A stretch of DNA of 10,192 bases from Planctomycetes bacterium UBA2386 (GTDB taxonomy: Bacteria; Planctomycetota; UBA1135; UBA2386). Where the stretch lies: positions 1-10,192 of the forward strand of contig DDSQ01000035.1 of the NCBI GenBank assembly GCA_002343845.1. The letters are read 5' to 3'. Shown here piece after piece: positions 2-10,192 of this stretch. The notes under the pieces are model-generated. The model was given only the letters and a program-made list of their open reading frames with translations. It made no database searches and was not told the DNA's origin. The first letter of the stretch is position 1. Each line of letters starts with the position of its first letter. The position numbers were made by a program, and so were the translations under genes.

Positions 2-217
2 GCCCGGGCGCTGGCGGTCGAGCCGCGCGTGCTGGTGCTCGACGAACCGACGGCGTCGCTCGACTCGGTGACGGCGCAGGCCGTGGTGTCGACACTGCTC
101 GCGCTGCGGGCGCGCACGGGCCTCGCCATGCTGCTGATCACCCACGACCTTGCCCTCGCGCGGGCGGTCGGTTCGCGCATCTACTCGCTGCAAGGAGGAC
201 GACTGTGCCCAGGTTGA
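2..217 (+). CDS. ABC transporter ATP-binding protein, 3' fragment (5' end outside window)
   Basis: This is the last 71 residues of an ABC-transporter ATPase, open from the left edge. The Walker B box LVLDEP is at bases 32-49, the D-loop SLD at 56-64, and the switch histidine (H-loop, ITHD) at 137-148. Their spacing is normal for the family. The protein ends about 24 residues after the H-loop, so it has only a short C-terminal tail and no extra substrate-binding domain. Walker A, the Q-loop and the ABC signature lie upstream of the window, so the transported substrate cannot be told. By family knowledge it would hydrolyse ATP on the cytoplasmic face to drive a membrane permease. Its last codons contain the Shine-Dalgarno sequence and start codon of the next gene, so the two are probably one transcript and translationally coupled. 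Confidence 0.93.
   Translation, partial: ARALAVEPRVLVLDEPTASLDSVTAQAVVSTLLALRARTGLAMLLITHDLALARAVGSRIYSLQGGRLCPG
192..198 (+). promoter_or_regulatory. Shine-Dalgarno site for the GTG-started gene at 205
   Basis: AAGGAGG lies six bases before a GTG codon, inside the end of the ABC ATPase reading frame. It is the best ribosome-binding site in the window. It decides the start of the downstream gene, because the frame then begins directly with a signal peptide. Confidence 0.85.
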
Positions 218-1470
218 TCGGAACGGTGTTCGTCGCCGCATCGCTGGCGTTGGCGGTGAGCGCCAGGGCCCAGGCAACGCCGTGGCATCCTCTGCCGGCA
301 TCGCCTGCGACCTCGGCGTTGGTGCTGTGGGACCACGGCGGCCAGGAACGCGCCGCCGAACTCGCGGCCATGGCGCCGGCGCTGCTGCAGTGCCGGTTGG
401 CGAGAGCCAAGGCCAAAGCCCCCGCGGTCGTGGCGATGCTCTACGTCGATGGTCGGCGCGGCGCCATCGTCGGCACGGTCCCCGCGGCCGCGGCCGCCGA
501 GCTGGTGCCGTTCGTGCAGGCTCTGCTCGACGACAGCGCGGACCTGCCGGCGGATGCGCAGGCGTTGGCGGTTGCCCATGCCGCGTTGCGCATCGACGAC
601 GAACAGTGCGTGCGGCCCGGTGGGGTGTTGCGGCACGCGGCACGAACGGCGCTGTGGCCGCACCGGGTTCCGGTGCCGGGGGACGCCAAGGGGATCGTCG
701 CGATGCCGCCCACGCGTCTGGGCGAACTGCTCCGCCTGCCGGTGCGGCGCGTCGTGGCCGCGGCAGGTGCGCCGTCGGCGGCGCTGCAGTCGATGCTGCA
801 GGCGATCGCCCCGGCGCCCGCAGCCGCTGCCCACGTAGCGTCGCCAGCGGCGGTGGCAGGCGATGGCGAACTGCGCGACGTCGTGCACACCTTCACCGAC
901 CAGCCCTTCGTGCTGGTCGGGTTCCCGGTTCCCGTCGACGCCGACCGCGGCGCGCTCGCCGTTGCCGTCGCCGCCGCCCATGCCCGTGCCGCGGAACGGT
1001 GGCCGTTGCGCGGCACCGAGCTGCGCTCGCATGCGTCGTTCGCGTCCTTCGACTGGTTGGCCGGCGACGACCTCGTCGCCTTCTGCCGACGCGGCGTGGA
1101 CGATGTCCAACTGCTGCCCGGCGAACGGGCGCCCGGGGTCGACGCGGAGCGGGCGGCGACGGCGGCGGAGGTGCGCGACTTCGTCGACGACCTGCGGACC
1201 CGGCCGTTGGCCGCCGCGGAGGTCGAGGCGGCGCGTCGGGCGCGTTGCCTCGAGATCGCCGTCGTTGCGCCCTCGCCCGGCGATCCGTCGTCGCTGGCGG
1301 CACGCCTGCTCGCCGCCACGCTGGCCGGCGAGTGCGGCATTACCCAGGATGCGATCGAGGCGGTGGCACCGGCGGCGGCCGGGCAGGCGCTGCAGGCCCT
1401 GCTCGCGGGCCGGGGCACCTGGCATGCCGTTTCGCCACCACCGGTGTCCCAGCGCGGCTTCCGGCGATGA
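205..1470 (+). CDS. secreted M16 (insulinase-like) peptidase homologue lacking the zinc motif
   Basis: 421 residues, GTG start chosen from the AAGGAGG site at 192-198. Residues 1-23 form a signal peptide (basic start, hydrophobic core, cleavage near ARA-Q), so the protein is probably exported. The rest resembles the two-lobed M16 fold. Residues 120-205 follow the usual order of an M16 N-lobe: a helix, then 'RTALWPH', a G-containing loop, 'MPPTRLGELL', then a 'VVAAAG' strand and a helix. Residues 228-300 resemble the second lobe ('PFVLVGFPVP', then 'HASFASFDWLAGDDLVAFCRRG'), and 335-410 contain the typical 'A.EVEAARR' helix and a final strand. The HxxEH zinc motif expected near residues 45-60 is absent, so it is probably a non-catalytic M16 subunit or a degenerate relative. 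The coding frame overlaps the ABC ATPase by 13 bases, suggesting one operon. The M16 assignment is by pattern only and could be wrong; the export signal is clear. Confidence 0.85.
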   Translation: MPRLIGTVFVAASLALAVSARAQATPWHPLPASPATSALVLWDHGGQERAAELAAMAPALLQCRLARAKAKAPAVVAMLYVDGRRGAIVGTVPAAAAAELVPFVQALLDDSADLPADAQALAVAHAALRIDDEQCVRPGGVLRHAARTALWPHRVPVPGDAKGIVAMPPTRLGELLRLPVRRVVAAAGAPSAALQSMLQAIAPAPAAAAHVASPAAVAGDGELRDVVHTFTDQPFVLVGFPVPVDADRGALAVAVAAAHARAAERWPLRGTELRSHASFASFDWLAGDDLVAFCRRGVDDVQLLPGERAPGVDAERAATAAEVRDFVDDLRTRPLAAAEVEAARRARCLEIAVVAPSPGDPSSLAARLLAATLAGECGITQDAIEAVAPAAAGQALQALLAGRGTWHAVSPPPVSQRGFRR

Positions 1471-1547: not shown

Positions 1548-3401
1548 ATGGGTTTCATCAACGTCGCCGACCGCACGATCAACGCCAAGCTCGTCTACTA
1601 CGGCGTCGGTGTCGGCGGCAAGACGACGAGCCTGCAGCAGGTGCACGGCATCCTGTGCCCGCGCAACGAGGTCCAGCTCGTCTCGATCAACACGGAAGAG
1701 GACAGCACGCTGCTGTTCGACTTCCTGCCGATCAACCTCGGTCAGGTCGGCGGCTTCAAGATCCGCATCCAGGGCTTCACGGTGCCGGGCCAGCCGAAGT
1801 ACCGGCAGATGCGCAGGTACGTGCTGCAGGGCGCGGACGCGGTGGTGTTGGTCGTCGACAGCCAGCGCAGCCGGCTGCAGGAGAACCTCGAGTCGCTGCA
1901 GAGCATGCGCGAGAACCTGCGCACCAGCACCGGCACCAGCGAGGACATCCCGATCGTCGTGCAGTACAACAAGCGCGACCTCGACGACGTGTTGCCCGAA
2001 GCCGAGCTCGATCGGCACTTCCGCTTCCGCGACGACATCGCGACGTTCCCGTCGGTCGCAACCGAGGGGCAGGGCGTGTTCGAGGCGTTCGTCGAGGCTG
2101 CGTCGGCCCTGGTGCAGCGCAAGGTCGCGCAGTACGGGCTGGGCCGCGGCAAGGACGGCCCGCAGGAGGTCGCCGAGGGCGTGCGCGCGAAGTTGTGGTC
2201 GATCTGCGACGAGGTGCGCCGCGAGCGGGCGGTGGTTCCGGTCGCCGAGCTGCCGCAAACGCGCGTCGAACTGGCCGAGGAGGCGCCGTCGATCGCGTTG
2301 CCGCCGGTGGAGCGCGCGGCGGTGGTCGACCCGGACGGTGACGAGCCGTCGCTGGGATCGCTGGGCCTGCCCGGGCTGCCGAAGGCCGCGGCGCCAACGG
2401 ACGCAGACGAATTCGAACTGGCCTACCAACTTCGCGACTCGGCGGCCGGCGGACCGCCGCTCGCGAAGGCGAACGCGAACGAGGTGCTGCGCGACGACGA
2501 ACTGCAGTTCGACCTGGCGGCCGGCATGGCGGAACTCGGGCAGGGCTCGTCGCTGCCTGTTGGGGTCGATCACGATCCGACGTTGCTCGACAAGACCATG
2601 CAGTCGAACCTCGAGCTTGCGCGACGCTACGGCGAACTCGACGAGCAGCGGCTGCTGCTCGAGCGCAAGGTGCAGGAACTGGTCGACGTGGCGCAGCAGA
2701 CGGTGCACGACCTCAAGCGTCCGCTCAGTGCGCTGCGGCTGATGCTGTCGACGGTCGACAAGGGCTACCTCGGCGCCGTCAGCGATCCGGTTCGGCAGGC
2801 GGTACAGAACGGGCAGATGGCCGCGAGCCAGATGGAGCGTCTGGTGCGCGACCTGCTCGACAGTTCCCGCCTCGACCACGACGGCGTGCAGCTCGCGATC
2901 GCGGAGTGCGACCTGACGCTGGTGCTCGCCGACGTGATGCGCACCTTGCGCTACGAGATCGAGGAGAAGCGCGTGGACATCCAGGTGCTGCCGCTGCCGA
3001 AGGTGCGAGCCGATGCGTGGGCGCTGAGCAAGGTGTTCATGAACCTGCTCGGCAACGCGATCACGTACTCGCGCGCGGACATCGCGGCGACCATCAAGGT
3101 GTTCGCCGAGGACGACGGCGACCACTGGCGCGTCGGCGTACGCGACAACGGCATCGGCATCCCGGCGGGCGACCGTCCCCGGTTGTTCCGTCGCTTCGAA
3201 CGCGGCAGCAACACCGGCGGCATCAGCGGCACCGGGCTCGGCCTGCACATCGTCAAGGAGATCGCGCAGGGGCACGGGGGTGCCGTGACGTTCGAATCCG
3301 AGGTCGGCGTCGGTACCACGTTCTGGCTGTGCCTGCCGAAGAACCCTGTGCAGGCGCCGCACTCGACGGTCAGCTCGATCGCGCAACAGCACGATCTCTG
3401 A
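1548..3401 (+). CDS. MglA-like small GTPase fused to a histidine kinase
   Basis: 617 residues, soluble, with no signal peptide or membrane segment. I chose ATG 1548 over GTG 1506 because MglA-family proteins begin 'M.FIN.A.R.IN.K.VYYG', and this one reads MGFINVADRTINAKLVYYG. Residues 1-195 are the GTPase: P-loop GVGVGGKT (19-26), the MglA-type TVPGQ (78-82) in place of DxxG, and NKRD (141-144) for guanine. Residues 200-345 are a charged, proline-containing linker without recognisable domain. A helical segment (350-385) leads into a HisKA-type helix with HDLKRPL, phospho-acceptor His387, and a second helix to about 443. The ATPase domain has the N box NLLGNA (499-504), DNGIGIP (533-539), the F box near 547-550 and GTGLGL (561-566), so the kinase looks intact. 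Family knowledge predicts GTP/GDP switching and ATP-dependent autophosphorylation; GTP state controlling kinase output is inference. No MglB/roadblock GAP or canonical response regulator is next to it. Confidence 0.95.
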   Translation: MGFINVADRTINAKLVYYGVGVGGKTTSLQQVHGILCPRNEVQLVSINTEEDSTLLFDFLPINLGQVGGFKIRIQGFTVPGQPKYRQMRRYVLQGADAVVLVVDSQRSRLQENLESLQSMRENLRTSTGTSEDIPIVVQYNKRDLDDVLPEAELDRHFRFRDDIATFPSVATEGQGVFEAFVEAASALVQRKVAQYGLGRGKDGPQEVAEGVRAKLWSICDEVRRERAVVPVAELPQTRVELAEEAPSIALPPVERAAVVDPDGDEPSLGSLGLPGLPKAAAPTDADEFELAYQLRDSAAGGPPLAKANANEVLRDDELQFDLAAGMAELGQGSSLPVGVDHDPTLLDKTMQSNLELARRYGELDEQRLLLERKVQELVDVAQQTVHDLKRPLSALRLMLSTVDKGYLGAVSDPVRQAVQNGQMAASQMERLVRDLLDSSRLDHDGVQLAIAECDLTLVLADVMRTLRYEIEEKRVDIQVLPLPKVRADAWALSKVFMNLLGNAITYSRADIAATIKVFAEDDGDHWRVGVRDNGIGIPAGDRPRLFRRFERGSNTGGISGTGLGLHIVKEIAQGHGGAVTFESEVGVGTTFWLCLPKNPVQAPHSTVSSIAQQHDL

Positions 3402-3454: not shown

Positions 3455-3530
3455 TGGTACCTCCGGAAGGGATCGAACCTTCGACCCGCGGATTAAGAAT
3501 CCGCTGCTCTACCAGCTGAGCTACGGAGGC
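3455..3530 (-). tRNA. tRNA-Lys (anticodon CTT)
   Basis: A complete 76-base cloverleaf on the minus strand: seven-pair acceptor stem (GCCTCCG with CGGAGGT), D arm GCTC/GAGC with an eight-base loop, anticodon stem GCGGA/TCCGC, loop TTCTTAA with anticodon CTT (top-strand 3495-3497, reading the lysine codon AAG), five-base variable region, T arm GAAGG/CCTTC with loop TTCGATC, discriminator A and encoded CCA (3455-3457). An oddity is that the first acceptor pair is G1-U72 rather than a Watson-Crick pair. It is divergent from the tRNA-His gene. Confidence 0.96.
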
Positions 3531-3653: not shown

Positions 3654-3732
3654 GGTGGCTGTAGCTCAGCTCGGTTAGAGCACCAGGTTGTGGTCCTGGG
3701 GGTCGCGGGTTCAAATCCCGTCAGCCACCCCA
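3654..3732 (+). tRNA. tRNA-His (anticodon GTG)
   Basis: Complete cloverleaf: acceptor stem GTGGCTG with CAGCCAC, D arm GCTC/GAGC with a ten-base loop, anticodon stem CCAGG/CCTGG, loop TTGTGGT with anticodon GTG (3690-3692), five-base variable region, T arm GCGGG/CCCGT with loop TTCAAAT, and encoded CCA (3730-3732). The histidine hallmark is present: G at position -1 (base 3654) faces discriminator C73 (base 3729), the pair recognised by bacterial histidyl-tRNA synthetase. Its 5' end is 123 bases from that of the divergent tRNA-Lys. Confidence 0.97.
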
Positions 3733-8835: not shown

Positions 8836-9912
8836 ATGCGTTCCTGGCATCTCGTCGCGTGGGTCGTGGCGTTGGCGACGATCGCGTTCCTGCTCCGCGA
8901 GACGTTCGTCTTGGCCGCGACGGCGGGAGAAGCGGAGATCGCCGCGCGCGAGGCCGCAGCCAAAGCACAGGCCGCCGCTGCCGTGCCGCCGCCGGCGAAT
9001 GCTGTGGCCCCGCCCGACGACGCCGGGGCCTACGCGCGCGTCGCGCTCGAACTCGCGGCGACCAAGGACCGCCTGATCGCGGTCGAAGCGCTGCTCGCGC
9101 AGCGCAACCAGGAAGCAGCCGAGCGCGCCGCCGCGGCGGCGTTGCCACCGACGATGCCGGAAGGCGTGCGCAGTTGCCTCGTCGCCTTGCAGTCGACCTT
9201 GCGTCGCCAGGGGTTCCACGGGCCGCGCTTCCTGCGCGCGGAACGTCTCGCCGGCGGCGTGCTCGAAGGCGTCGAAGTGCTCGACGGCGATCCCGAGGGC
9301 ATCGACGTCGCGTTCGTTCAGGCCGAGCGCATGACGGCGACCCTCGACCGCGGCAAGGACCGCTTCGAACTGCGGTTCTTCGAGGGCGTGCGCACGTTCG
9401 CGGCGGAACGCACGGTGCTGCCGAAGGACGGCTGGGCGCTCGTGTTCGATGGTGTCGACGGGCCAGCGATCGAGGCGGAGCTGCCGTTCCTCGTGCGTGC
9501 CGAAGGCGTCTATCCCGACGCGCCGCAGCGCGACACCCGGCCGACGACCGATGTCGATGCAGCGGTCCGTCGGCAGTGGCTCGAACGGCTCGACCGCGTT
9601 CTGGCGGACTCCGGCATGGACCCGCGTTTCCGCGTCAACCGCTTCCGCGGCATGCAGGATGGCTGGTTCCTGACGGCCGAACTCGTCGGCATCGACGACA
9701 AGGCGCGCGTCGTCGGCGGTGCGCACTGCGAACGGTTCGCCGTCGAGATCGACGAATCGAGCGGCGTGGTGTCGCTGCTGCTGCGATCCGGAGTCTTGCG
9801 CCGCGGCGCCCGCGAGTCGACCATCACCGCCGAAGGCTTGCGCATGCTGCTCCCGAACCTGACGCCGGCAACGGCACGCGAGGCCATGCTCGGCATGGTC
9901 GTGACCAAGTGA
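8836..9912 (+). CDS. membrane-anchored protein of unknown function, coupled to polyprenyl synthase gene
   Basis: 358 residues; I do not recognise the family. One N-terminal membrane segment (about 5-29, AWVVALATIAFLL) is followed by an Ala/Glu-rich helix (30-50), a proline-rich hinge (51-60) and a second helix (64-102) that could form a coiled coil. Residues 108-225 and 240-355 are a mixed alpha/beta region with charged strands, for example 'DRFELRFFEGVRTF' (175-188) and 'GWFLTAELVGIDDKARVVGG' (276-295). Topology is probably a short cytoplasmic N-terminus with the bulk in the periplasm. There is no Cys-based motif, HExxH or nucleotide-binding loop. ATG 8836 opens directly on the membrane segment but has no clear Shine-Dalgarno site. 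Its TGA overlaps the next gene's GTG, so the two are translationally coupled; whether the function is linked to isoprenoid metabolism is unknown. Confidence 0.88.
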   Translation: MRSWHLVAWVVALATIAFLLRETFVLAATAGEAEIAAREAAAKAQAAAAVPPPANAVAPPDDAGAYARVALELAATKDRLIAVEALLAQRNQEAAERAAAAALPPTMPEGVRSCLVALQSTLRRQGFHGPRFLRAERLAGGVLEGVEVLDGDPEGIDVAFVQAERMTATLDRGKDRFELRFFEGVRTFAAERTVLPKDGWALVFDGVDGPAIEAELPFLVRAEGVYPDAPQRDTRPTTDVDAAVRRQWLERLDRVLADSGMDPRFRVNRFRGMQDGWFLTAELVGIDDKARVVGGAHCERFAVEIDESSGVVSLLLRSGVLRRGARESTITAEGLRMLLPNLTPATAREAMLGMVVTK

Positions 9913-10192
9913 CGACAGCGCCCGCCGCGGCGACGTTCTCGGCGTTTGCCGCCGCGTGGGGGCCGCGTGTCGAGCAGGCCCTGCACGCCTTGCTGCCGCC
10001 CGCCGACACCCCGCCGGCGTCGCTGCACGCGGCGATGCGCTACGCGCTGTTTCCCGGTGGCAAGCGCCTGCGGCCGTTGCTGGTGCTGCTCGGCGCGCGC
10101 GCGGTCGGCGGCGATCCGTCGCAGGCGCTGGCCGCCGCAGCGGGCCTCGAGTGCCTGCACACCTACAGCCTCGTGCACGACGACCTGCCGTG
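9909..10192 (+). CDS. ispA: polyprenyl (farnesyl/geranylgeranyl) diphosphate synthase, 5' part
   Basis: First 94 residues, running off the right edge. GTG 9909 overlaps the preceding stop codon (GTGA). The sequence is a class I polyprenyl synthase: 'MRYALFPGGKRLRP' (43-56), whose Gly-Gly-Lys-Arg-Leu-Arg-Pro binds the diphosphate of isopentenyl diphosphate, and 'GLECLHTYSLVHDDLP' (79-94), the start of the first aspartate-rich, magnesium-binding motif. The family condenses isopentenyl diphosphate with allylic diphosphates to give C15 or C20 chains for quinones, carotenoids and undecaprenyl carriers; it acts in the cytoplasm. The LVHDDLP context resembles IspA-type enzymes, so I give the symbol ispA tentatively. 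Chain length cannot be judged, because the residues up to and after the motif are needed. An ordinary ORF caller would miss it, as there is no stop codon in the window. Confidence 0.92.
   Translation, partial: MTTAPAAATFSAFAAAWGPRVEQALHALLPPADTPPASLHAAMRYALFPGGKRLRPLLVLLGARAVGGDPSQALAAAAGLECLHTYSLVHDDLP

Follow-up and report, generated by a model that had tools for sequence, protein, structure and literature searches.

Here, we show that an MglA-type GTPase and a histidine kinase are joined in a single planctomycete polypeptide, and confirm that this fusion represents a real, conserved family rather than a chance or assembly join. This family forms one branch within a large clade of MglA-linked kinases, most of which have the layout MglA-GAF-histidine kinase. 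We propose tentatively, as something short of likely, that MglA-linked histidine kinases make up an overlooked class in which one protein combines small-GTPase and two-component signalling, and that different catalytic steps may have been lost in its different branches. The planctomycete branch would have dispensed with the arginine finger and the phosphatase residue while keeping phosphotransfer, and the branch retrieved with an acidobacterial query would have kept the arginine and mostly lost the phospho-acceptor histidine. In the branch represented in the window (the whole stretch of 10,192 nucleotides that was analysed), the GTPase might then be a long-lived GTP-state module directly driving a kinase-only enzyme.

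Bacterial small GTPases and histidine kinases share pathways as separate proteins, as in Frz-RomR-MglA and in the conservons. With the fusion present in many genomes, direct control of a histidine kinase by a GTPase becomes testable in one protein.

Layout of the fusion protein

The initial annotation had read a GTPase and a kinase from one polypeptide, and this reading stood: the gene is a single frame encoding 617 aa (Table 1), and its halves were matched separately, residues 1-193 to MglA structures (phmmer, best 3t12, E 2.4e-46) and residues 382-599 to HK853-type kinases (phmmer, 8e-26). Foldseek placed the GTPase half with MglA (TMt up to 0.90, ~40% identity) and the kinase half with HK853 (2e-17 to 6rh7). 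Pfam recognised Arf (66-180), HisKA (382-444) and HATPase_c (489-599), each above its curated cut-off, and no PAS, GAF or HAMP domain in the window's fusion protein. All motifs that had been named are present, namely the P-loop with K25, TVPGQ, NKRD, H387, the N box (N499/N503), DNGIGIP from 533 and GTGLGL from 561. The accompanying statement that both halves look catalytically intact holds for these motifs but not for two further positions, where Ser53 replaces the Arg53 of MglA and Arg391 occupies His+4.

The AlphaFold2 model of one chain (input alignment of 53 sequences; mean pLDDT 74, pTM 0.47) predicts a G domain to about residue 196 and a helix at 205-227, beyond which residues 236-334 are mostly disordered. 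A helix at 345-405 would then take the coiled coil into the DHp bundle; the other DHp helix (413-445) and then the ATP-binding domain follow. Inside the linker, which is ~110 aa long and mostly disordered, the family alignment revealed two conserved islands (residues 289-300 and 312-323). In the C-terminal tail, S606 is found in all of the best 120 of 4008 homologues, and the end is usually DL. No membrane-type hydrophobic stretch was detected in the fusion (top 19-residue mean hydropathy 1.42); the protein is probably soluble.

Table 1. Features of the fusion gene and its neighbours, with positions in the window
Feature	Position	Strand	Basis or remark
Gene upstream of the fusion, no assigned function	205..1470	+	Directly adjoins; conserved beside the fusion
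MglA-type GTPase / histidine kinase fusion gene	1548..3401	+	Single open frame, 617 aa + stop
MglA-type GTPase domain, residues 1-196	1548..2135	+	phmmer to 3t12, E 2.4e-46; Foldseek to 6h17, TMt 0.90
P-loop GVGVGGKTT, residues 19-27 (K25)	1602..1628	+	Residue comparison
Ser53 at the position of MglA's intrinsic arginine finger (Arg53)	1704..1706	+	Residue counts, homologues
Thr54, switch I, magnesium-binding	1707..1709	+	Kept in 120/120, best 120 of 4008 homologues
G3 motif TVPGQ, residues 78-82 (Gln82)	1779..1793	+	120/120, best 120 of 4008 homologues
G4 motif NKRD, residues 141-144	1968..1979	+	120/120, best 120 of 4008 homologues
Conserved helix past the GTPase, residues 205-227	2160..2228	+	AlphaFold model, conservation
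Linker, mostly disordered, residues 236-340	2253..2567	+	pLDDT <50 across most of 236-334
Coiled coil, residues 345-386	2580..2705	+	Model; contains block common to MglA-linked kinases
HisKA domain, residues 382-444	2691..2879	+	Pfam
Phospho-acceptor His387	2706..2708	+	120/120, best 120 of 4008 homologues
Arg391 at His+4 (Thr/Asn in HisKA phosphatases)	2718..2720	+	Residue counts, homologues
HATPase_c domain, residues 489-599	3012..3344	+	Pfam
Conserved C-terminal tail, residues 605-617	3360..3398	+	Conservation among homologues
tRNA-Lys(CTT), downstream neighbour	3455..3530	-	Same place in 10/11 loci scanned
tRNA-His(GTG), downstream neighbour	3655..3732	+	Same place in 10/11 loci scanned

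Distribution of the fusion family

The homologue search returned 4008 proteins at E<=0.001 (7994 scored). The best 120 of these, comprising the window's own protein and 119 others that are 59-93% identical, all match over the full length and carry the same three Pfam domains. Family relatives were also located at 13 loci in GTDB genomes (L001 to L013), one of which (L011) ends with its contig after the GTPase half. Kinase domains of loci were assigned by Pfam, a crude motif test having missed true kinases (L004 and L014 among them). A frameshift or assembly join between the halves, the artefact against which the initial annotation had cautioned, is ruled out by the 13 genomic loci and by the identical domain set in 120/120 listed homologues of the 4008.

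How many genomes share the fusion had also been left for later counting. Counted from the listing of matches at E<=1e-80, it is present in one planctomycete class, represented in the collection by a single order, in 39 of the 154 genomes. In four of these the gene is split or contig-cut: the halves lie on different contigs in G468 and G502, G494 has the GTPase half only and G508 the kinase half only. Another 71 genomes of the class match more weakly, at E<=1e-40, and among the matches listed these have the GTPase half only. A phylum-wide draw yielded matches at E<=1e-60 in 14 of 392 genomes, and the family itself in six (G001, G009, G010, G069, G233 and G373). A phylum-wide trait is ruled out by these proportions, 6/392 across the phylum versus 39/154 in the one class.

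A wider clade of MglA-linked kinases

Outside the family, Pfam revealed MglA-GAF-HisKA-HATPase proteins in Planctomycetota (L014, L127) and Acidobacteriota (L050, L077), an MglA-HisKA-HATPase protein without GAF (L030), and an MglA-PAS-receiver protein (L037) whose HATPase match is slightly below the cut-off. Some sources give MglA-GAF-histidine kinases the automatic name 'signal transduction histidine kinase/signal recognition particle receptor subunit beta'. With residues 1-300 as queries, L077 retrieved 6554 proteins (8000 scored) and L127 retrieved 2704 (7997 scored) at E<=1e-20; HATPase_c is present in 117 of the best 120 of the 6554 and in 106 of the best 120 of the 2704.

The G domain of the window family belongs to this clade. 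In a G-domain tree of 127 rows, the MglA-linked kinases and the window family stand apart from ordinary MglAs (SH-aLRT 90), and a 102-row tree, built without the columns around residue 53, had a branch that separates 94 rows from eight ordinary MglAs (SH-aLRT 99.5). Some clade members have no kinase in the same frame (L128 to L131, L133 and L134).

MglA-linked kinases of Planctomycetota and Acidobacteriota have in common a 37-residue coiled-coil block. In local alignments, none of 200 shuffles reached the score obtained for L014, L030, L031, L037, L077 or L127 (z 3.3-9.3). The same procedure detected no block in L050, L061, L073, L128, L129 and L134, and in L130 and L131 the tail offers too few residues for this alignment. 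The coiled-coil pattern occurs in 312 of 359 proteins, against a shuffled mean of 4.3 (range 1-10). Genome searches with the block, which are of limited sensitivity, gave one match, the fusion itself, in 8 of 13 genomes and none in the other five, though these have more distant MglA-linked kinases. The kinase domains of the family and of its GAF-type relatives are 27-31% identical, and at this level a closer relationship of the family kinase to these relatives than to generic kinases was not borne out.

These architectures qualify the view that the GTPase occupies the sensor position. It applies to the window's branch, which is devoid of GAF, but in most listed relatives outside the family GAF lies between GTPase and kinase, so that in such proteins MglA is added to a sensor and does not replace one. 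They also bear on the original model of nucleotide gating, by which the GTPase, like an ordinary N-terminal sensor, would control phosphotransfer according to its bound nucleotide, the signal passing along an unbroken helix into the DHp bundle. The domain order fits this model, as do the predicted helix joining coiled coil to DHp (345-405) and the conservation of the coiled-coil block in MglA-linked kinases. However, with residues 236-334 mostly disordered and a linker of 77-170 aa among the family, the GTPase would not be rigidly coupled to the kinase, and GAF separates the two in GAF-type relatives; we therefore consider gating through a continuous helix unlikely. Gating by docking is compatible with this layout: with rigid transmission improbable and the coiled coil conserved, docking according to nucleotide state is favoured, and the coiled coil, which occurs in relatives whether or not they have GAF, could plausibly serve as the docking site.

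No intrinsic arginine finger in the GTPase half

Arg53 of MglA, which precedes switch-I Thr54, is described in PMC6876712 as an intrinsic arginine finger that MglB moves towards the active site, and the same source gives Thr54 a role in magnesium binding. According to PMC4316618, Arg53 is kept in all Group 1 MglAs and is essential to GTPase activity. Among the best 120 of 4008 homologues of the fusion, residue 53 is Ser in 115, Gln in three, Ala in two and Arg in none. In a 127-row alignment, Arg is present in 77 of 78 ordinary MglAs (the exception, L055, has Gln) and in all but one of 13 further members of the larger clade (Thr in L030), but in none of the 36 family rows. These 36 rows were chosen by residue 53 itself, and the count is retained because the 127-row tree unites exactly these rows in a single clade (SH-aLRT 100). 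In 11/12 fusion genomes, the standalone MglA keeps Arg53, the contig-cut copy of G005 standing outside the count. By eye, the standalone MglAs inspected end in a hydrophobic helix, except L109, the second copy of G012. Further changes private to the family relative to ordinary MglAs in the 127-row alignment are P20V, F56L, V83P, T88M and A103V.

Lys25, Thr26, Thr54, TVPGQ with Gln82, and NKRD are invariant in the best 120 of 4008 homologues, which makes nucleotide binding by the GTPase half look selected. A degenerate G domain, acting as an adaptor or localisation tag for which nucleotide turnover is irrelevant, would be in keeping with the family-wide disappearance of the arginine finger, but a scaffold would not need the invariant residues, and we judge it highly improbable. 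Nor is Ser53 proof of lost hydrolysis, because CvnD9, a Group 2 member, hydrolyses: as reported in PMC4316618, MglAs of Groups 2-5 carry Thr at the Arg53 position, and CvnD9 has GTPase activity, though with GTPGQ in place of TVPGQ.

Arg39 is present in 120/120 of the best 120 of 4008 homologues versus 7/78 ordinary MglAs, and Arg224 and Arg225 are found in 120 and 119 of the same 120, respectively. Arginines of this kind could act in trans if the GTPase were the output of the protein, with the kinase dimer pairing the G domains and the state of the kinase setting hydrolysis. Loss of the cis arginine is the expected look of a switch to a trans arginine, and the MglA of conservons has been proposed as the system output (PMC4316618). 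Yet of 25 more distant members without Arg53 (P0352 left out), 11 have another residue in place of Arg39, and the kinase keeps every phosphotransfer motif, so that we regard an output role of the GTPase as quite improbable. Arg39 could be a substitute for Arg53 in part of the family.

The family resembles Group 1 MglAs, such as those of Myxococcus xanthus and Thermus thermophilus, in its G fold, Thr54 and G1-G4 motifs with TVPGQ and NKRD. Unlike these, it has Ser, Ala or Gln instead of the arginine beside the switch-I Thr, altered P-loop and switch residues, and an attached kinase, the GTPase being the first ~196 of 617 aa instead of a single domain of 150-240 aa. It also differs in the adjoining MglB-like gene that is usual, though not universal, for Group 1: no Robl_LC7 gene was found on the fusion's contig in 12/12 fusion genomes, some of these contigs being short. 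Robl_LC7 is encoded on other contigs in all 12, and in 11 of them the standalone MglA has a Robl_LC7 gene on both sides. A GTPase without cis arginine or GAP might simply track GTP versus GDP, with the kinase reporting the guanine-nucleotide or energy state. The invariance of the binding motifs despite arginine loss, the missing Robl_LC7 gene on the fusion contig and the absence of any other sensor domain by Pfam would agree with such a pool sensor, which we nevertheless think distinctly unlikely, considering that some GTPases of the MglA family hydrolyse without Arg53 (PMC4316618) and that an exchange or activating factor may exist.

Kinase motifs and catalytic losses by branch

H387, D388, N499, N503, D533, F550 and G561 to L566 each occur in 120/120 of the best 120 of 4008 homologues. 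The kinase half thus has the full set of HisKA kinase features, a phospho-acceptor His with adjacent acid and the N, G1, F and G2 boxes. His+4 (residue 391) is Arg in 116 and Lys in four of the same 120. Thr or Asn at this position is reported as required for HisKA phosphatase activity (PMC3510030), and the family does not have the residue that marks bifunctional kinase/phosphatases. We infer from Arg/Lys at His+4 that the phosphatase activity of the kinase is low.

The relationship between these changes was surveyed in 348 proteins, which are top search matches rather than random samples. They remained from 360 listed proteins (best 120 from each of three queries) after exclusion of one without the MglA motif by pattern and eleven shorter than 555 aa. 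Arg53 is missing from 145 of the 348; among these, His387 is kept in 144 and His+4 is Arg or Lys in 144. The other 203 have Arg53, with Thr or Asn at His+4 in 187. In the Arg53-containing set from the acidobacterial L077 query (n=117), 83 proteins have Leu and 17 have His at the His position, and Ala replaces the first Asn of the N box in 112. Arginine loss in one branch and phospho-acceptor loss in the other suggest which step each can spare.

A rule that loss of the arginine is always paired with loss of the phosphatase residue was rejected; it fits 332/348 proteins and is broken by L030, which has Thr53 and no GAF, yet Thr at His+4. Constraining L030 to group with the window family gave an AU p of 0.613, which is compatible with a shared as well as a separate arginine loss in L030. 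Arg53-less rows form essentially one clade (39/41, SH-aLRT 99), the others being L030 and P0352, a protein with Lys53 and without recognisable kinase motifs. As the Arg53-less state is mostly confined to one clade, its association with the other changes may be one historical event, and independent repeats are not claimed. Loss of Arg53, absence of GAF and the change at His+4, lying on mostly one branch, would correspond to about one event.

Proposed action of the fusion

We consider it a real possibility, though not quite a probable one, that a flexibly tethered, slow GTPase docks according to its nucleotide state and thereby sets a kinase poor in phosphatase activity, with its response regulator encoded at another locus. 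Judging from what is known of the kinase family, the kinase would dimerise via the coiled coil and the DHp helices, each protomer carrying a flexibly tethered MglA-type GTPase. The motifs of this GTPase suggest that it binds a guanine nucleotide. With the intrinsic arginine finger missing, hydrolysis is expected to be slow and would not be sped up by the known MglB mechanism, so that the GTP form might be long-lived unless another arginine is supplied. The docking site of this form may be the conserved coiled coil of the same protein, or else a partner at the pole or membrane; docking may place or activate the kinase. As the phospho-acceptor and the ATP site are kept and the HisKA phosphatase residue is lost, mainly phosphorylation is expected, presumably of a response regulator encoded elsewhere.

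Comparison with described systems

The closest described system is the conservon, in which the kinase and the MglA-like GTPase are separate proteins (PMC4316618, PMC13343842). Actinobacterial conservons comprise the histidine kinase CvnA, MglB-like CvnB, CvnC and MglA-like CvnD (PMC4316618). The fusion and the conservons both tie an MglA-family GTPase without Arg at the Arg53 position to a histidine kinase (PMC4316618). In contrast to the conservons, which consist of four separate genes in one locus with GTPGQ (Group 2) and a membrane-spanning kinase, the fusion is one polypeptide with TVPGQ, and its contig shows no Robl_LC7 hit.

MglA-GAF-HisKA-HATPase proteins of Acidobacteriota and Planctomycetota are in the same MglA clade as the fusion and have the same coiled-coil block, but keep Arg53 and GAF, and the acidobacterial-query set is mostly without the phospho-acceptor His (Leu in 83/117). 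HK853-type HisKA kinases resemble the fusion in DHp and ATP-binding fold and in all phosphotransfer motifs; unlike them, the fusion has Arg/Lys and not Thr/Asn at His+4.

In open-access PMC literature, covered mainly through titles and the starts of abstracts and with most subscription papers outside it, no description of an MglA-histidine kinase fusion was found, and the architecture seems undescribed in print. The 2014 survey of prokaryotic Ras-like GTPases left out sequences >240 aa (PMC4316618).

Genomic neighbourhood

No response regulator was found near the fusion among ten Pfam-scanned ORFs of the fusion and neighbouring loci, and a promoter and terminator scan returned zero sites. Four close unfused relatives (L163 to L166) and two longer ones (L167 and L168) have no adjacent kinase gene in a crude motif scan, so that a split-gene (Rosetta) test lends no support. 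Ten neighbours of unfused relatives examined by Pfam, none of them from L165, are glycosyltransferase, aminotransferase V, BshC and DnaA genes.

The gene upstream of the fusion has no Pfam or NCBIfam match, and homologues of it lie upstream of the fusion at 5 of 13 other loci. Ten of 13 loci have a conserved ORF ahead of this neighbour, matched in truncated form at the edge of the window; where tested, in four loci, it encodes a double-ABC ATPase.

Relatives and Neighbors of the Fusion

Among the listed matches (P0121-P0240) to residues 1 to 300 of an Acidobacteriota MglA-GAF-HK protein, the phospho-acceptor His is replaced by Leu in 83 of 117 MglA-GAF-HK proteins and Ala occupies the position of the first N-box Asn in 112 of them, while the same set retained the G1, F, and G2 boxes. 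The proteins of this set without the phospho-acceptor His are probably pseudokinases whose MglA switch is complete.

MglAs without a kinase, short or longer, belong to the same clade of MglA-linked histidine kinases as the fusion (L163-L168) and possess Arg53, the intrinsic arginine finger. Glycosyltransferase, aminotransferase, or DnaA genes lie near these loci in several Planctomycetota genomes.

Standalone planctomycete MglA genes are flanked on both sides by genes of the MglB-like family Robl_LC7 in 11 of 12 fusion genomes. Standalone MglAs (L114-L120 and others) carry an Ala/Pro-rich extension, at the end of which a hydrophobic helix was recognized by eye; this helix is probably membrane-anchoring.

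The C-terminal tail of the fusion is conserved and may be a short binding motif. Two genomes, G496 and G465, each have one in-frame TGA inside the kinase-half match; the open frames there measure 575 and 594 amino acids, respectively, and this TGA may simply be the end of the gene. G503 encodes the full fusion and, in addition, a kinase-half-only frame, a possible MglA-less paralogue.

Features of the fusion, its relatives, and its surroundings
Feature	Location	Remarks
MglA-GAF-HK example	L050:9950-12175	
Conserved C-terminal tail of fusion	window 3360-3398	S606 in 120/120 listed homologues; Asp-Leu usual end
In-frame TGA, kinase-half match	G496:C99:36190-37083	
In-frame TGA, kinase-half match	G465:C80:39809-40624	
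373-aa open frame matching kinase half only	G503:C123:2405-3154	57% identity, residues 361-607
Conserved gene upstream of fusion	window 205-1470	No match in Pfam or NCBIfam
Apparent gene start at right edge	window 9900-10192	

The upstream gene gave no match in Pfam or NCBIfam, and its translation reads as having a signal-peptide-like start. At the right edge of the window, a motif in the translation points to the start of a putative polyprenyl diphosphate synthase gene.
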